Virus record (IMG/VR): IMGVR_UViG_3300046028_003225
Span: 1 to 20,868 of that record
From: a virus
Strand: one strand, 5' to 3'
Length of the DNA: 20,868 nucleotides
Made by a program: the position numbers and the translations under genes. Below are positions 9,192 through 19,172 of the stretch, piece by piece. The notes beneath the pieces are model-generated. The model was not told the origin of the DNA, made no database searches, and saw only the letters and a program-made list of their open reading frames with translations. Every line of letters starts with the position of its first letter. Within the stretch, counting starts at the first letter, position 1.

Positions 9192-9262
9192 CTTAAAAGA
9201 TTGTGGCGGTTCGGGGATAAGTCGAATTTTCAACCGCTAAGTCTAGCCACGGCGCAAGTGTA
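9192..9262 (-). promoter_or_regulatory. degenerate copy of the early promoter-leader cassette before the HNH gene
   Basis: Reading leftward, a TACACTT half-operator (9256-9262) is followed by a TAGACT -10-like box (9240-9245). Next come a hairpin with perfect six-base arms GCGGTT/AACCGC (9206-9211 and 9232-9237) and TCTTTTAAG (9192-9200). The order matches the three leftward early operons, but the operator lacks a proper second half and the loop is longer. This may be the promoter of the HNH gene; the match is partial and could be chance. Confidence 0.35.
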
Positions 9263-14177: not shown

Positions 14178-14342
14178 TCAACTCCAAAAAGTGCTAACAA
14201 CCAATCCCGCTATCACAATCACGAGCAGGACTTTGAGAATCGAATCAACAATTTCGTCCATGCGATCATCTCGCTGGCGGCGTTTTATCTGCGTCTCATT
14301 GACAGATTCAAGGTACTCGCCAAGGGTTTGTTTGTGTGCCAT
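14178..14342 (-). CDS. 54-residue membrane protein, first gene of operon A
   Basis: The ATG at 14342 lies nine bases after the conserved TCTTTTAAG leader element. The product begins MAHKQTLGEYLESVNETQIK, a charged helix rich in Arg, Lys and Glu (RRQRDDRMDE). It ends in a single membrane helix at about residues 35-52 (ILKVLLVIVIAGLVVSTFW), so it is a tail-anchored type protein with the bulk in the cytoplasm. The next start codon follows one base after the stop. As the first gene after the operator-controlled promoter, it should be among the earliest and most abundant leftward products. Confidence 0.7.
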   Translation of the reverse strand: MAHKQTLGEYLESVNETQIKRRQRDDRMDEIVDSILKVLLVIVIAGLVVSTFWS

Positions 14343-14351
14343 AACTGCTTT

Positions 14352-14375
14352 CTTAAAAGACCCCGAAGTAGGGGC
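14352..14375 (-). promoter_or_regulatory. 5' leader stem-loop of operon A
   Basis: In the leftward RNA, four C-G pairs (14361-14364 with 14371-14374) closed by a G-U pair (14360 with 14375) enclose a six-base loop containing ACUU, followed directly by UCUUUUAAG (14352-14360). The predicted transcription start is only about two bases before the stem. Two further copies with different but paired stems lie before operons B and C. Confidence 0.6.
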
Positions 14376-14383
14376 GTAGTGTA

Positions 14384-14403
14384 ATTCTAAATCACAATTG
14401 TGT
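14384..14403 (-). promoter_or_regulatory. operon A promoter and palindromic operator
   Basis: A TAGAAT -10 box (14384-14389) is followed upstream by the perfect palindrome CACAATTGTG (14393-14402). The palindrome occupies the -10/-35 spacer, so a bound repressor would block polymerase. There is no good -35 box. The same arrangement occurs at operons B and C and at the divergent regulator gene. Confidence 0.65.
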
Positions 14404-14407
14404 AGGA

Positions 14408-14431
14408 TTACTAGGTGTTTATACCTAGTAA
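14408..14431. repeat. inverted repeat between operons B and A
   Basis: TTACTAGGT (14408-14416) and ACCTAGTAA (14423-14431) are perfect nine-base arms around a six-base spacer. The repeat lies between the stop of the SSB-like gene and the operon A operator. It lacks a following T-run, so it may be a second regulator site or a weak terminator rather than a canonical intrinsic terminator. Confidence 0.6.
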
Positions 14432-14440
14432 CCTATTTAA

Positions 14441-14722
14441 TTAAAACGGCGGAAAACTATCGTCAGAACCGCTATCTTGGCGGCGTGGTGCTTGGCGTTG
14501 TCCTGGTTGCCCTTGTTGGGGTCGCCCGTCAACTTCGGGAAGGTCAACAATACTTAGCCAACCATTCCACAAATTACCCGCCGGAATGCTATCAATCTTG
14601 ATGGTCATTTTGTTTCCGTCTTGAAACAAGCTGCCAACTGTCAGCCATCGAGATTTTTCCTCTCCGGCTGCGTTGCGGTAAGTGCCATTGCTAGCCACTA
14701 GGTTTTTAATTTTGGTTGCCAT
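14441..14722 (-). CDS. predicted single-stranded DNA-binding protein, SSB-like acidic tip
   Basis: This 93-residue protein begins MATKIKNLVASNGTYRNAAG and runs through an OB-fold-like series of strands: EEKSRWLTVGSLFQDGNKMT, IKIDSIPAGNLWNGWLSIV. A disordered Gln/Arg/Gly linker follows (about residues 67-82), then the tip DSGSDDSFPPF. Acidic residues followed by a terminal Phe are the hallmark of SSB tails that recruit partner proteins. The body is shorter than E. coli SSB and resembles compact phage ssDNA-binding proteins. It is encoded directly after a recombination exonuclease and an annealing protein, which fits an ssDNA role. The start overlaps the exonuclease stop. The assignment rests on tail, fold pattern and context. 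Confidence 0.6.
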   Translation of the reverse strand: MATKIKNLVASNGTYRNAAGEEKSRWLTVGSLFQDGNKMTIKIDSIPAGNLWNGWLSIVDLPEVDGRPQQGQPGQRQAPRRQDSGSDDSFPPF

Positions 14723-15357
14723 TACTTATGTTCCTTTGCAATTTTCTCAATGATTTGATAATAAAACTCTCTCGCTGCTTCAACTTTTGCCGTGATTTTC
14801 TCTGCGGCTCCCTCCTCTCGGTCATAGTAAACACGGGTTACACGCAATTCCGGCGCAATATGCTCTACACGGTGAATTTCGGGGTTTTCGTACCCAATTA
14901 GGTGTTCAGGCGTATCAACTAGGCAATAGCAGATTTCGGCCTTTGGCTTGTCCCATAGCCACATATACGCTTGAAGCTGCCAGTAGTAGGTTTTATCCTC
15001 GCCCAACTCAGCCAAGACGGGGAAGGTTTCAATGCTCCAGCTTGTTTTAATGTCACGGATACAGTCATCGCAAACTAGGTCAGCTTCGCCTGTAATCCAG
15101 TCATTTTTGCGGCGTTCGGCGTTTTTCTTGTAATCGGTAAACAGCACCGAATTCAAAAGGTCGATTGACCTATCTTCACACTCAATGCCCTTGGTCATGT
15201 ACTTGCTTGATACCTTGCTGTCGTAGCCATAAACGAATTCCCGCGCCATCTTGATAACGGCGGTCTTTGCCCCGACCGAAAGGGTTTCCCCTTTGGTCTT
15301 TGGCTCCGTCATAATTTCGGCAAGGCTTGAAGCCCTAAAAATTAGCGGTTTAAGCAT
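14722..15357 (-). CDS. YqaJ/lambda-exonuclease-like recombination nuclease
   Basis: This 211-residue protein has a PD-(D/E)XK nuclease core. Glu61 lies in TKGIECEDRSIDLL, and Asp93 in WITGEADLVCDD. The pair Asp102/Lys104 lies in CIRDIKTSW, with Asp in the place of the common Glu, and KTYYWQLQAYMWLW (122-135) is the conserved Gln-containing helix. This matches viral alkaline or YqaJ-type exonucleases that digest one strand of duplex DNA to feed an annealing protein. The C-terminal helices (KITAKVEAAREFYYQIIEK) are typical of the family. It starts eight bases inside the end of the annealing-protein gene, so the two are co-translated as a recombination pair. Length is normal for the family. Confidence 0.8.
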   Translation of the reverse strand: MLKPLIFRASSLAEIMTEPKTKGETLSVGAKTAVIKMAREFVYGYDSKVSSKYMTKGIECEDRSIDLLNSVLFTDYKKNAERRKNDWITGEADLVCDDCIRDIKTSWSIETFPVLAELGEDKTYYWQLQAYMWLWDKPKAEICYCLVDTPEHLIGYENPEIHRVEHIAPELRVTRVYYDREEGAAEKITAKVEAAREFYYQIIEKIAKEHK

Positions 15358-15877
15358 TGGATAGTGCCTCCACTACTTGAGCGTCTTGCTCTGCGGTCAA
15401 AGCAAACGCATCGCGCAGTTTTTGGGTGGTATATGCGCCTTCTTTAATCCTAGTGATTGCGGTCAATAGGCGGTCATTGCTGATTGTTGCCTTGGCTGCT
15501 GGTACAGCTTCATCGGCTTCATCGGGCAAATCTTCGCCTTCAAAAATATACAAGGCAATACCGTGCAGGGCAATAGCCTTGACTAAACAGCGTTGCATTG
15601 ACTTGTTAACCTCGCTGGCATTGGGGTTCGTAATTGCCATGTTGTTATTGTTCATAACAGGCAAAAACGCAGTGCGGCACACGCCAAAAGCGGTAACACT
15701 GCAAAAAACCATCATGGTTTCGCCAAACATCTGAGGCGGCTTAAAGTCCCAATTTGCGTCTTTATCTTCTTGGAGTAGCACGTCAACCGCATAAGCCCAT
15801 GAAAGGTAGTTAAAACGCCCTTTCTTTTTCATTTTGTCCGTGACGTTGATTTTGCGTAATTCTGCAAAAGTTTTCAT
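15350..15877 (-). CDS. single-strand annealing protein (DUF1071/Sak-like)
   Basis: This 175-residue protein matches the DUF1071 family of phage annealing proteins. Visible blocks are KKKGRFNYLSWAYAVDVLL (18-36), with the YLSWA motif, and PPQMFGETMMVFCSVTAFGV (48-67). The strongest signature is LPVMNNNNMAITNPNASEVN (72-91) leading into KSMQRCLVKAIALHGIALY, then IFEGEDLPDE (111-120). The C-terminal 50 residues form a variable helical tail. Proteins of this kind bind ssDNA as rings and anneal complementary strands. Together with the next gene (exonuclease) and the SSB-like protein it forms a complete recombination set. The start overlaps the preceding stop (ATGA). Confidence 0.8.
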   Translation of the reverse strand: MKTFAELRKINVTDKMKKKGRFNYLSWAYAVDVLLQEDKDANWDFKPPQMFGETMMVFCSVTAFGVCRTAFLPVMNNNNMAITNPNASEVNKSMQRCLVKAIALHGIALYIFEGEDLPDEADEAVPAAKATISNDRLLTAITRIKEGAYTTQKLRDAFALTAEQDAQVVEALSNA

Positions 15878-16020
15878 TTCTCATCCTTTGGGTAAACATA
15901 AAACTCGGAGGCTGAATTGCATCCGACTTCTAACTCAATTAATCCGTAAAACTCAATTCCAGCTTGCAAGGCTTGGTACTCGGTATTCCAAGTTTGTGCG
16001 CTAAATTCTTCTTCAGTCAT
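15874..16020 (-). CDS. 48-residue acidic small protein
   Basis: A minus-strand frame from the ATG at 16020 to a stop at 15874 exactly bridges two genes with four-base ATGA overlaps on both sides, and has a GGAG ribosome site (ACTGGAGAGC) 7-9 bases upstream. The product begins MTEEEFSAQTWNTEYQALQA and ends ASEFYVYPKDEK; it is acidic, with no membrane helix and one Cys. No family is recognised. The couplings make it a confident gene of unknown function. Its location just before the annealing protein suggests an accessory of recombination or a small early regulator. Confidence 0.65.
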   Translation of the reverse strand: MTEEEFSAQTWNTEYQALQAGIEFYGLIELEVGCNSASEFYVYPKDEK

Positions 16021-16187
16021 TTTTGCTCTCCAGTGATAAGCCCGTTAATTTCATCGATAGCGTTAAGGTCAAGGTCGCAAAATCCTGCCTCTGCCATCTT
16101 GGATGCAATTACGTTGAGAAGGGCTTGGATGTCATCGCAATCAATAGTGTCAATGTCGCGAATTTCGTTGATGGCTGCTTGTAGCAT
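16017..16187 (-). CDS. 56-residue acidic helical protein, first gene of operon B
   Basis: The ATG at 16187 lies nine bases after the TCTTTTAAG leader element and has an AAGAGAG ribosome-site match. The product begins MLQAAINEIRDIDTIDCDDI and is strongly acidic with a regular helical pattern (QALLNVIASKMAEAGF, DLDLNAIDEINGLI). It has two Cys and no membrane segment. The stop overlaps the next start by four bases. Small acidic early proteins often act by binding host proteins or mimicking DNA, but nothing specific supports either here. Confidence 0.65.
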   Translation of the reverse strand: MLQAAINEIRDIDTIDCDDIQALLNVIASKMAEAGFCDLDLNAIDEINGLITGEQK

Positions 16188-16196
16188 ATTTACTCT

Positions 16197-16223
16197 CTTA
16201 AAAGACCCCGAGAAGTTCAGGGC
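16197..16223 (-). promoter_or_regulatory. 5' leader stem-loop of operon B
   Basis: In the leftward RNA, the arms at 16217-16222 and 16206-16211 pair as CCCUGA with UCGGGG, including a G-U pair that would be a C-A mismatch on the other strand. A further G-U pair (16205 with 16223) closes the stem. The loop is ACUUC. UCUUUUAAG (16197-16205) follows, nine bases before the start codon. Transcription should begin about three bases before the stem. Confidence 0.65.
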
Positions 16224-16232
16224 ATGGCATGA

Positions 16233-16252
16233 ATTCTATACACTTTTGTGTA
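16233..16252 (-). promoter_or_regulatory. operon B promoter and operator
   Basis: TAGAAT (16233-16238) is the -10 box of the leftward promoter. Immediately upstream is the inverted repeat TACAC-TTTT-GTGTA (16239-16252). No convincing -35 is present, as at operons A and C. The site differs from the operon A operator only in the A/T centre and flanks. Confidence 0.65.
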
Positions 16253-16269
16253 GATATACCACCCACTTA

Positions 16270-16286
16270 AAAATATAAATCTATCG
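16270..16286. repeat. 17-base repeat, copy 1
   Basis: The 17-base string AAAATATAAATCTATCG occurs here and, identically, at 18907-18923, at nearly the same distance upstream of the operon B and C promoters. Together with the promoter, operator and leader it forms a duplicated block of about 90 bases. Here the string also supplies part of the left arm of the terminator. Confidence 0.75.
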
Positions 16287-16311
16287 GGTTTTGACGCCCA
16301 ATAGATTTTTT
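16277..16311. terminator. bidirectional intrinsic terminator after operon C
   Basis: Twelve-base arms (16277-16288 and 16297-16308) pair around an eight-base loop, with one G-U or mismatched position, and are flanked by T-runs on both strands (ATATTTTTAAG reading leftward, TTTTT reading rightward). It lies 12 bases after the stop of the HTH gene and separates operon C from the operon B promoter. Confidence 0.8.
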
Positions 16312-16322
16312 CTATCGCCTTT

Positions 16323-16622
16323 TTACGTGATTAAAACGTGCGTTTCATACGAAATTGCTTTCTCAATCGTGCGAACGTGAACCCCGTATTGACTGGCAAG
16401 CGCCTGATTCGTGAGGTTCTCATTAATATGCTTTCTCAATGCCTCACGCTGTTTAACCGCGCTGCGAATGGCCCCTACTGCATCGGCCATTAGCTTAGTA
16501 TGCGGTAGCTCTTTCCCGCGCTTTGCATAGCTGGGCGCGGTTTGAAGGTAAGTGTGGCGATCTACAAAGCCATCACGCCGCGCTGGTTTGACAAAGCCTT
16601 TAGAGTATTTCGTCTGTGCCAT
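16323..16622 (-). CDS. small helix-turn-helix protein
   Basis: The start ATG at 16622 immediately follows the TAA of the helicase-methyltransferase gene. The 99-residue product has a basic N-terminus (MAQTKYSKGFVKPARRDGFV). A central helix follows (KLMADAVGAIRSAVKQREAL), then a C-terminal helix-turn-helix LTNQALASQYGVHVRTIEKA (about residues 70-89), close to the pattern in recombinase or sigma-type HTHs. The HTH at the C-terminal end and the basic front suggest DNA binding. It could guide the methyltransferase, act as a late regulator, or regulate the operators; none is shown. The terminator follows directly. Confidence 0.7.
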   Translation of the reverse strand: MAQTKYSKGFVKPARRDGFVDRHTYLQTAPSYAKRGKELPHTKLMADAVGAIRSAVKQREALRKHINENLTNQALASQYGVHVRTIEKAISYETHVLIT

Positions 16623-18818
16623 TTAGAACAGTCCTACTTGTTCATTTTTTGCATCTTCGATATTTTGGCAAGCCAACTCAAAGTATGCGGGTTTTAACTC
16701 AGTACCAATAAATCTACGGCCCATTTTTACTGCCGTGTAACCCTCAGAACCGATACCTGTAAACGGGCTAAAAACCAAATCGCCTTTGTTTGTCCATAAG
16801 TGAATGCAACGCTCAATAACGTCTAGCTGCAATGGGCACATATGCTTGGTGTCGTTCTCATCCCGCGCTGGCAGCTTGTTCAGTGTCCGACCTTGATTAA
16901 TGTCAAACCATACGGGGCTAGCGTATTTTTGCCATAAATCTACGGGCAGCTCGTTTTCTGCATCATGTTTTACGCGATCTTCAATTTCCCCAGGCTTACG
17001 CATGGTTACAACGTAATCAGGCAATCCCATGCGGCTCATAGTCCCATTTTCGCGGATTGTTTTATGCAGTAAACCAAGCGCCTTTGTACGTTGCATGGCT
17101 GTTACTGGGTCTTTCCAAATGCAAACCTCGGAATGGTAGATAAAACCTTCTTCTTGAAAAAGACGGATTAAATCCCCGCGAAAATCACGGATACCAATAA
17201 AACCTTGCCTCATTTTTGTTGTTGGTAGATTCATGCAATGAAATGACACGTTACGCCCTGGCTTTAATGTCCGCAATAATTCTTTGACTAAATAGCGAAG
17301 CTGCTCTGCAAATTCAGCATCGTCTTTGCAGTTCCCCATGTCGTGATCGCTGTTGGAATAAACGAAAAGATCGGCAAACGGGGGAGAAAAAACCGAGTAA
17401 TCAAGGCTGTTATCAGGGATTTTCTTTGACCATTTCACGCAGTCGCCTAAGTAAACGGTGAAATTCTCACTTTGGTAAGTATCTTCCCTGTAATCGTCAA
17501 CTACGTTTGTTTGTCCTGTGAGTTCTTTGTTCATAATGTCTTTCATGTAGGAAACCATCTTTGTTGATAATTCGTGATGCTGTTCTTCTTTGCGTTTCAA
17601 GTTCAGCAAAATTTGACCTTCGCTCTCAGCGGTGAATAAGTGAACTTTGACTTCACGCTTTTGACCAAATCGATAGCAACGGCGCACAGCTTGATAAAAC
17701 TTCTCGAAAGAATCATCAAGACCGACAAAAGCCATGCGAGCGCAATGTTGCCAATTCATGCCATAACCTGCAATTTTTGGCTTAGAAATCAAAACACGAA
17801 AGTCGCCATGAGCAAAGCCTAAAAGGTTCTTTGACTTGGTTTCGGGTTTGTCAGAGCCTTGAACGTTTACCGCGCCTTCAATCAATTCAGTCAGCAATTC
17901 GGCTTCATCATTCAAGTGACACCAAATAAGCCAAGGTTCGGACTTATCAGCGTTTACCACTTCGGCTAAAGCTTGGCAACGGTTCATAATTGAATCACGC
18001 TGGGCTTTGCGGCGCTCAAGCATAGTTTGGGCTGGCTTTGCAAACAAATCGCCCATTTGCTCTGTTTCGACTACGTGTTCAATGTACTCAAGTGCTGGCA
18101 GGTTGTATTTAGCCCCATCAAAGCCAATATCCGAAGGGTTGCGGACAACGACAGACCAAGTGCCCATCCATTCCCAAAAGCGAGATTGACCCCATCCTTT
18201 AAGTATCCATGTGCCTGTATCGCCTGTATCGTTGATAAAGTACGTTGCAAGCATTTCTGTGCGAGTCATTACCCCTAAAAATTCGCATTGGTTTCCAAGT
18301 TCCTCAAAATCATTGGGGCTTGGTGTTGCAGTACAGCTTAGGCGGTATGGGACAGACTGGCATGATTCGATTAGCTTTGTGCGCGTTTTCCCATCATGGG
18401 ATTTAAGGATTGATGATTCATCCAAAACTACGCCATGCAATTCATCAAAGTCAATGGAATCAATGCGCTCGTAATTGGTAATCCAAATGCCAGGCGCATC
18501 GGGTTTGCCGCCGTTAGCAACTCGTTTTACTTCAATCCCGAAAGTGTTGCCTTGTTCAATAGTCTGCTCGGATACCGCCAATGGCGCAAACACCAAAACC
18601 ATGCCGCCAGTGTGTGAAGCCACTTCATCGGCCCATGAAAGCTGCATTAGCGTCTTACCTAGCCCTGTATCGGCAAATATGGCAGCACGGCCACGCCTGA
18701 CAGCCCAAGACACAATCGTATGTTGAAAGTCAAATAAATGCTCGTTTAATTCGCTAGGTTGGTGGCCTGTTGCCACTTCTGCGCGGCGTTTAGCCGTTAC
18801 AAATTCCATATAGTCCAT
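16623..18818 (-). CDS. SF2 helicase (SNF2-like) fused to a DNA methyltransferase
   Basis: With the ATG at 18818 the protein has 731 residues; a TTG six bases upstream is an alternative start (AAGGGG lies 10 or 4 bases before them). Residues 1-430 are a helicase with Walker A ADTGLGKT (49-56), LDESS (132-136), SCTATP (161-166) and motif VI VRRCYRFGQ (378-386), as in SNF2-type enzymes. Residues about 450-731 are an amino-methyltransferase with the catalytic SPPF (478-481) ahead of the cofactor site FSPFTGIGS (683-691) and RRFIGTEL, a permuted order. SPPF resembles N4-cytosine enzymes such as M.PvuII, but N6-adenine cannot be excluded. No nuclease domain is present, so it is not a restriction enzyme by itself. 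It may methylate phage DNA while translocating. Confidence 0.85.
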   Translation of the reverse strand: MDYMEFVTAKRRAEVATGHQPSELNEHLFDFQHTIVSWAVRRGRAAIFADTGLGKTLMQLSWADEVASHTGGMVLVFAPLAVSEQTIEQGNTFGIEVKRVANGGKPDAPGIWITNYERIDSIDFDELHGVVLDESSILKSHDGKTRTKLIESCQSVPYRLSCTATPSPNDFEELGNQCEFLGVMTRTEMLATYFINDTGDTGTWILKGWGQSRFWEWMGTWSVVVRNPSDIGFDGAKYNLPALEYIEHVVETEQMGDLFAKPAQTMLERRKAQRDSIMNRCQALAEVVNADKSEPWLIWCHLNDEAELLTELIEGAVNVQGSDKPETKSKNLLGFAHGDFRVLISKPKIAGYGMNWQHCARMAFVGLDDSFEKFYQAVRRCYRFGQKREVKVHLFTAESEGQILLNLKRKEEQHHELSTKMVSYMKDIMNKELTGQTNVVDDYREDTYQSENFTVYLGDCVKWSKKIPDNSLDYSVFSPPFADLFVYSNSDHDMGNCKDDAEFAEQLRYLVKELLRTLKPGRNVSFHCMNLPTTKMRQGFIGIRDFRGDLIRLFQEEGFIYHSEVCIWKDPVTAMQRTKALGLLHKTIRENGTMSRMGLPDYVVTMRKPGEIEDRVKHDAENELPVDLWQKYASPVWFDINQGRTLNKLPARDENDTKHMCPLQLDVIERCIHLWTNKGDLVFSPFTGIGSEGYTAVKMGRRFIGTELKPAYFELACQNIEDAKNEQVGLF

Positions 18819-18831
18819 AAACAAATTACCC

Positions 18832-18858
18832 CTTAAAAGACCGCATAAAAGTTGCGGC
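18832..18858 (-). promoter_or_regulatory. 5' leader stem-loop of operon C
   Basis: In the leftward RNA, CCGCA (18853-18857) pairs with UGCGG (18841-18845), with a G-U closing pair (18840 with 18858) and a seven-base loop starting ACUU. UCUUUUAAG (18832-18840) follows and runs into the AAGGGG ribosome site. The stem sequence differs from operons A and B while keeping all pairs. Confidence 0.65.
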
Positions 18859-18867
18859 TTGGCCTGA

Positions 18868-18887
18868 ATTCTAAATCACAAAAGTGT
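18868..18887 (-). promoter_or_regulatory. operon C promoter and operator
   Basis: TAGAAT (18868-18873) and CAC-AAAA-GTG (18877-18886), with a following T, repeat the arrangement of operons A and B. This promoter is divergent from the regulator gene promoter 80 bases to the right, so the two share an intergenic control region. Confidence 0.65.
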
Positions 18888-18906
18888 ACATCCACACCAC
18901 AGTACG

Positions 18907-18965: not shown

Positions 18966-18983
18966 CACAATTGTGTCTATAAT
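18966..18983 (+). promoter_or_regulatory. regulator gene promoter with overlapping operator, leaderless start
   Basis: A perfect TATAAT (18978-18983) lies six bases before the ATG at 18990, so transcription should begin at or next to the start codon. The palindrome CACAATTGTG (18966-18975), identical to the operon A operator, sits two bases upstream of the -10 box. No -35 match is present at normal spacing. Binding there would shut off the gene (autoregulation). Confidence 0.6.
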
Positions 18984-18989
18984 GGCGAA

Positions 18990-19172
18990 ATGAACACTTT
19001 AGAAATTTGCATTGCATCCGTGGGCGGGACTGGCCGATTGGCTTACCTGCTAGACGTAAAACAGAACGTTGTCAGCAATTGGCGAGCGCGTGGCGTTCCT
19101 AAGTCCTGGGAAAAAGTCATGCAGCTCAAGTTTAAGAAAGCCATTGCGGAGGCTAAAAAAGCAGTGGTATAA
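18990..19172 (+). CDS. Cro/YdaS-like transcriptional regulator
   Basis: This 60-residue protein has a helix-turn-helix of the Cro/YdaS type. ICIASVGGTGRLAYLLDVKQ (7-26) is the first part of the HTH, and NVVSNWRARGVPKSWEKVMQ (27-46) the recognition helix plus wing, with the Asn-x-x-x-x-Trp-x-x-Arg-Gly-x-Pro pattern typical of the family. The rest is a basic helix KFKKAIAEAKKAVV. There is no oligomerisation domain as in full-length CI. The gene has no ribosome site, and its -10 box is six bases upstream, so a leaderless message is likely, as for lambda cI from PRM. By location between divergent promoters with shared operators, it is the best candidate to bind CAC-W4-GTG. Confidence 0.8.
   Translation: MNTLEICIASVGGTGRLAYLLDVKQNVVSNWRARGVPKSWEKVMQLKFKKAIAEAKKAVV

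Follow-up and report, generated by a model that had tools for sequence, protein, structure and literature searches.

The window examined in this study is a stretch of 20,868 nucleotides of viral DNA (IMG/VR record IMGVR_UViG_3300046028_003225, positions 1 to 20,868). Three operons on its minus strand, termed A, B and C, begin in the same way, with a -10 box TAGAAT, 6-7 bases, A-N-G, a stem-loop, UCUUUUAAG, a purine-rich Shine-Dalgarno (SD) sequence and ATG. The stem-loop and its U-rich tail are referred to here as the leader. An initial annotation had placed three minus-strand hairpins before these operons and all three were found as described. Hairpin A, G-CCCC-UACUUC-GGGG-U, lies at 14360-14375 and matched the model of the element at 26.6 bits. 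Hairpin B, G-CCCUGA-ACUUC-UCGGGG-U (16205-16223), matched at 49.7 bits and hairpin C, G-CCGCA-ACUUUUA-UGCGG-U (18840-18858), at 35.2 bits. The homologue of hairpin B in the related locus L123 is CCCCGA/UUGGGG, with every pair preserved. The tail UCUUUUAAG occupies 14352-14360, 16197-16205 and 18832-18840 and runs into the SD sequences AAGAAAG, AAGAGAG and AAGGGG, respectively. The genes start at ATG 14342 (A), ATG 16187 (B) and, probably, ATG 18818 (C). The -10 boxes are at 14384-14389, 16233-16238 and 18868-18873, with transcription predicted to start at A14377, A16225 and A18860. The gap of 6 nt between the box and the first leader base at promoter A is kept in relatives. Operator-like palindromes precede the boxes, namely TACACAATTGTGA at 14392-14404, TACACAAAAGTGTA at 16239-16252 and TACACTTTTGTGA at 18876-18888. 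These features were recognised from the sequence, and the palindrome of promoter A is of the class found beside the Cro-like gene of relatives.

The first gene of operon A (14178-14342) encodes a protein of 54 amino acids with no function assigned and has relatives in loci L123 and L124. Operon B starts with a gene for 56 amino acids (16017-16187), also with no function assigned, followed by genes for a Sak-like annealing protein and an exonuclease. A helicase-DNA methyltransferase fusion is encoded by the first gene of operon C (16623-18818). On the plus strand a Cro-like helix-turn-helix regulator of 60 amino acids (18990-19172) is encoded divergently from operon C, has 56 relatives in viral contigs and likely reads the operators. 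Its gene is predicted to be leaderless, with TATAAT, 6 nt and an ATG at the predicted +1 (18978-18992), and operator-like TCACAATTGTGT lies just 5' of the -10 box. Among the gene starts of the window UCUUUU precedes the SD only at A, B and C, besides a stemless copy far upstream of an HNH endonuclease gene. This copy (UCUUUUAAG, 9192-9200, minus strand) is possibly decayed or a chance occurrence. TCTTTTAAG is present at sites 8241 and 9192, and the proper leader hairpin is missing at both. Longer hairpins of 12 and 10 pairs are found upstream of operators B (16277-16308) and A (14408-14431). The former has a U-rich tail on the minus strand (16308-16277) and may terminate transcription of operon C.

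The stems of A, B and C differ and all pair, as annotated, but by energy the three folds are within chance (z -0.2 to -1.2). They are ordinary for their composition and the case for the hairpin therefore depends on relatives. The closing G-U pair is present in all three copies, as is the inner U-G pair of B. The closing pair had been taken as a sign of selection on the RNA. It never varies and so is by itself no evidence of covariation; the outermost pairs (G-U and C-G) barely vary and likewise give none. The ACUU loop is present in the three window copies and is the commonest loop overall. It is not universal, as AUCCC, AUUUC, ACAUC and AAAUC also occur.

Relatives were collected in two ways. 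The motif-independent set consisted of the divergent-strand upstream regions of the 56 Cro-like relatives, 55 of which had enough sequence. The element was found in 53 of these 55 loci (41 distinct sequences), which had been picked without the motif, and the model gave 70 matches in the Cro-adjacent loci. A second set comprised 46 sources, namely the window, loci with related exonucleases and helicases, and two named phages; here the model matched only the copies of the window, L123 and L124. The consensus was 5'-AUGCC-stem-loop-stem-GGUCUUUU(U/A)AG followed by the SD and AUG. The pattern set was obtained with CATGCC-N8..18-GGTCTTTTTAGGA, in which the stem interior is left free; viral counts from it are lower bounds. 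An earlier, looser pattern scan gave mostly chance matches. The pattern gave at least 119 distinct matches in viral contigs. Among the 119 viral matches listed, 116 had at least two further inner pairs and 119 had an ATG just downstream. The same pattern in 257 Gb of cellular genomes gave 11 matches against an estimated 20 or so expected by chance, which is at or below chance. At least two inner pairs were present in 2/11 of these, a downstream ATG in 2/11 and a -10 box in 0/11. This contrast in inner pairing between viral and cellular matches is the clearest demonstration of genuine pairing. The Cro-derived set fixes neither CATGCC nor GGTCTTTTTAGGA, yet it agrees with the pattern-derived set.

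All members found were uncultivated phage contigs, and no named phage with the leader was met in the searches made. EBPR podovirus 3 and the records MW202520 and MW202489 were considered and rejected as members. The Manatee Spring phage record L417 (MW202544.1) has a homologue of a leader gene at 15540-15620 (+), with CCUUAACAGG near the predicted start and no UCUUUU before the SD. The cellular genomes held no prophage copies beyond chance. No close named phage was found, and only one tRNA was present. Literature searches for the leader motif found nothing.

In the 28 distinct hairpins of 17 nt, 99.5% of cells were paired, double changes were seen at 5/7 pairs and 0/500 shuffles equalled this. 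When the pairing partners were slid, only 30-63% were paired in the same set. Stem variants included CCCUGA/UCGGGG, CCUUGA/UCAAGG, CUCUGA/UUCGGAG, CCGA/UCGG and CCAUCC/GGGUGG. The hairpin fold was predicted at +3 in 72/72 distinct leaders, with a mean energy of -8.6 kcal/mol compared to -2.8 kcal/mol for shuffles. Conserved sequence without pairing in relatives would have spoken against the annotation; the stems of the relatives pair. Compensatory changes were abundant, and at variable pairs G-U/U-G exceeded A-C/C-A by about 55 to 6, which bears out the strand-specific selection on the RNA that had been proposed and identifies the leftward mRNA as the selected strand. The leader hairpin is a real, selected structure at the RNA level. 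That the repeats act as DNA, as a second operator, a cruciform or a transposon-like repeat, is barely plausible. A true palindromic operator does lie just upstream, but the 55 to 6 ratio, the free stem sequence and an operator that varies while the leader does not all speak against a DNA-level element.

In Rfam searches the window gave no match at the gathering threshold and L396 2740-3120 none at E<=1. The sole signal in the window was a noise-level AgvB match of 16.3 bits against 56. The leader is a real RNA part that is apparently uncatalogued.

The hairpin had been annotated at the very 5' end of the mRNA and the relatives support this predicted position, as TANNNT lies exactly 6 nt before the element in 44/53 Cro-adjacent loci. 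Conservation was below 0.7 bits at -6 to -2 and rose to about 2 bits from the predicted +1, positions -1 to +5 being partly fixed by the pattern. The predicted first base of the transcript is the A of AUGCC, which puts the hairpin at +3. A 5' stabiliser has its stem-loop within a few nt of the 5' end and, on the predicted +1, so has the leader. It precedes about 60 unrelated small early proteins or gene families, in constant position before SD and ATG. Several different palindromes overlap the -10 of leader promoters, including TTCACANNTGTGAA, TGTTTAG-N4-CTATACA, ATAAG-N4-CTTAT and TCTAGC-N5-GCTAGA. The palindromes vary and the leader is constant, so repressor specificity changes while the leader stays. 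From -35 to -7 of the relatives' promoters at least six different operator palindromes share one place over the -10. The varied operators over similar early regions suggest immunity groups.

The leader as part of the operator was rejected. The operators differ while the leader stays, and L259 and L260 have the operator without the hairpin. These two loci (L259:7760-7906, minus strand, and L260) carry the same Cro family; their leader is long, of another kind, and is closed by CCAACGCAC...GUGCGUUAGG. This alternative leader had no Rfam match and a folding z of only -1.1. A leaderless mini-ORF (open reading frame) from the +1 AUG was also rejected, by eye, because frame and length vary: one class reads AUG CCC UGA, whereas the frame stays open in other classes.

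A second, promoterless form was found between genes. It consists of a stop codon, GGGGC-UUCG-GCCCC, AUCAAU, CCC-GCAA-GGG, UCUUU(UU/AA)AGGAG and ATG. Most of the 46 copies were 200-320 nt, or one short gene, downstream of a same-strand leader. Examples lie one gene past leaders in L237 (minus-strand offset 1836), L396:3055 (+), L283, L288 and others. Both hairpins showed compensatory changes (GAGGC/GCCUC; CCU-UAAC-AGG) and their caps belonged to the UNCG, GNRA or UAAC type. Of 30 distinct genes that follow this form, at least 15 have homologues that in other phages follow a 5' leader and keep the same tail; the tail is thus tied to the gene, and the kind of hairpin to its place. The double hairpin looks like a putative protected cleavage linker. 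The intercistronic copies favour a role in RNA stability or translation over a purely promoter-linked one.

The tail of the leader is GGTCTTTT(T/A)AGGAG. TCTTTT is invariant in relatives, and GGTCTTTT and AG are constant beyond the needs of the SD. The loops tend to ANNYC. These two features would also fit a reading in which an RNA-binding protein of the phage or the host (or an Hfq-like factor) binds the hairpin and the invariant GGUCUUUU and switches early translation on or off, and there is a precedent in T4 gene 43, where a translational operator hairpin is bound by the phage protein gp43 (PMC3014915). The invariance of GGUCUUUU makes this the best rival, which we consider possible but not probable. 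The stem sequence is free, and the loops of the leader (ANNYC) and intercistronic (GCAA/UAAC) forms are wholly different, which makes a loop-reading protein unlikely. Pairing of the loop with its own SD in a pseudoknot was rejected, since tails permuted among elements paired equally or better in 478/500. Being rich in pyrimidines, the loops do pair with SDs more readily than loops with shuffled letters, though not with their own SD in particular.

The position directly behind early promoters would suit an element of transcription elongation, either an antiterminator of the boxA/nut or put kind or a pause hairpin close to the promoter. Part of boxA is similar to UCUUU(A)A. The rrn and suhB leaders have a UCUUU-type element near the SD, boxA beside the SD being known at suhB (PMC5725501). 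However, boxA (GYTCTTTAANA) wants a pyrimidine at position 2, which every leader copy violates; the base before UCUUU was G in 72/72 distinct leaders. In the leader, moreover, the hairpin precedes the element. Phage HK022 put is a nascent RNA structure behind early promoters, and putL sits just downstream of PL (PMC9378689), but put comprises two stem-loops within about 70 nt and lacks a link to an SD, compared to a single hairpin of 16-24 nt here. The leader always abuts the SD and the element recurs before the second gene of short operons. An elongation element is therefore judged quite unlikely.

The GC stem followed by UCUUUUU could also be read as a weak intrinsic terminator or attenuator, cutting early transcripts short near +25. 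A d'Aubenton-Carafa-type score was below 0 in 95% of the leaders and in the intercistronic hairpins tested, compared to +49 for the trp attenuator, although this score is a borderline yardstick here as rrnB T1 was also below 0. Hairpins A, B and C were missing from the terminator scan list and natural variants have the U run shortened to UCUUUAAAGG. Termination is very improbable on these grounds.

From the structure, strand and position described above we infer that the leader is, on balance, a cis-acting stability and translation module of phage early mRNAs. The RNA would start with pppA-U and pass straight into a hairpin of 5-8 bp, followed by unpaired UCUUUU leading to the SD. With about two free 5' bases, the hairpin would hinder 5'-end-dependent decay of the RppH/RNase E type. 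Self-pairing would keep the leader bases off the ribosome-binding site and present an open, U-rich landing site for S1 and the 30S subunit together with the SD. Between genes, a UUCG- or GNRA-capped hairpin past the upstream stop, a short AU-rich linker, a small hairpin and the same tail would serve the downstream gene, possibly with cleavage within the linker. The predicted openness from U-tract to start was 0.60 for native leaders, 0.52 with a shuffled hairpin and 0.61 with no hairpin. Native exceeded shuffled in 92% (p 8e-17), so self-pairing of the hairpin leaves the ribosome site free. RppH and RNase E are known to be impeded by 5' stem-loops (PMC3997798), and in T7 an A/U-rich enhancer upstream of the SD increases translation (PMC8748333). 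The stability and translation role is favoured because of the 5' hairpin, the conserved U-tract and SD, the openness and these precedents.

Several points weigh against this role. A pure insulator could do without the invariant GGUCUUUU and without loops that keep returning to ANNYC, a hint that something binds here. Openness with the hairpin (0.60) was not above that without it (0.61), and the second intercistronic hairpin has only 3 bp. Structure, strand and position are established, whereas the precise start sites, taken from the -10 boxes, are predicted, as are the influence on mRNA decay and on translation, the use of S1 and intercistronic processing. A broader reading, which is tentative and rather unlikely, is a position-dependent RNA cassette system in the early genes of a large phage group, with a portable UCUUUU-SD tail that is preceded by a 5'-terminal AUGCC hairpin after a promoter and, at intercistronic sites, by two hairpins joined through a cleavable AU linker.

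The leader resembles the 5'-terminal stabilising stem-loops of the Escherichia coli ompA and papA mRNAs in having few unpaired 5' bases and then the ribosome-binding region. It differs from them in being a conserved modular family before many unrelated genes, with an obligatory UCUUUU-SD tail, an intercistronic twin and a stabilising effect that is predicted. The closest precedent in concept is the Start-Associated Sequences (SAS/ESAS) of Cluster K mycobacteriophages, a repeated motif of unknown function with an SD at the starts of many non-structural genes; in half of the copies an inverted repeat lies upstream (PMC3203893). The leader likewise repeats at the starts of different families (about 60), and its window copies are confined to the starts of early operons. 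The 13-bp SAS/ESAS consensus GGGATAGGAGCCC is however unrelated to the leader tail, the leader has a short covarying hairpin at the predicted +1, and the hosts are presumably different. The T7 gene 10 leader also has an A/U-rich enhancer before a strong SD (PMC8748333), but it serves late genes, is not a repeated family with a hairpin and has no common sequence with the leader by eye.

The leader is a compact RNA part that at least 119 phage loci have in common, combined with many families of genes and several types of operator. The promoterless intercistronic form is new here and resembles the engineered hairpin-flanked cleavage sites used to tune operons. Natural compensatory stem variants exist, so that what a 5' hairpin does to decay and translation is directly testable. 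The leader may also be a ready-made expression leader for synthetic biology. In uncultivated aquatic phages its sequence marks early promoters and genes. If the cassette system is true, each early gene would have an mRNA of its own, capped by a hairpin and as stable and translatable as the others, whichever repressor controls the promoter.

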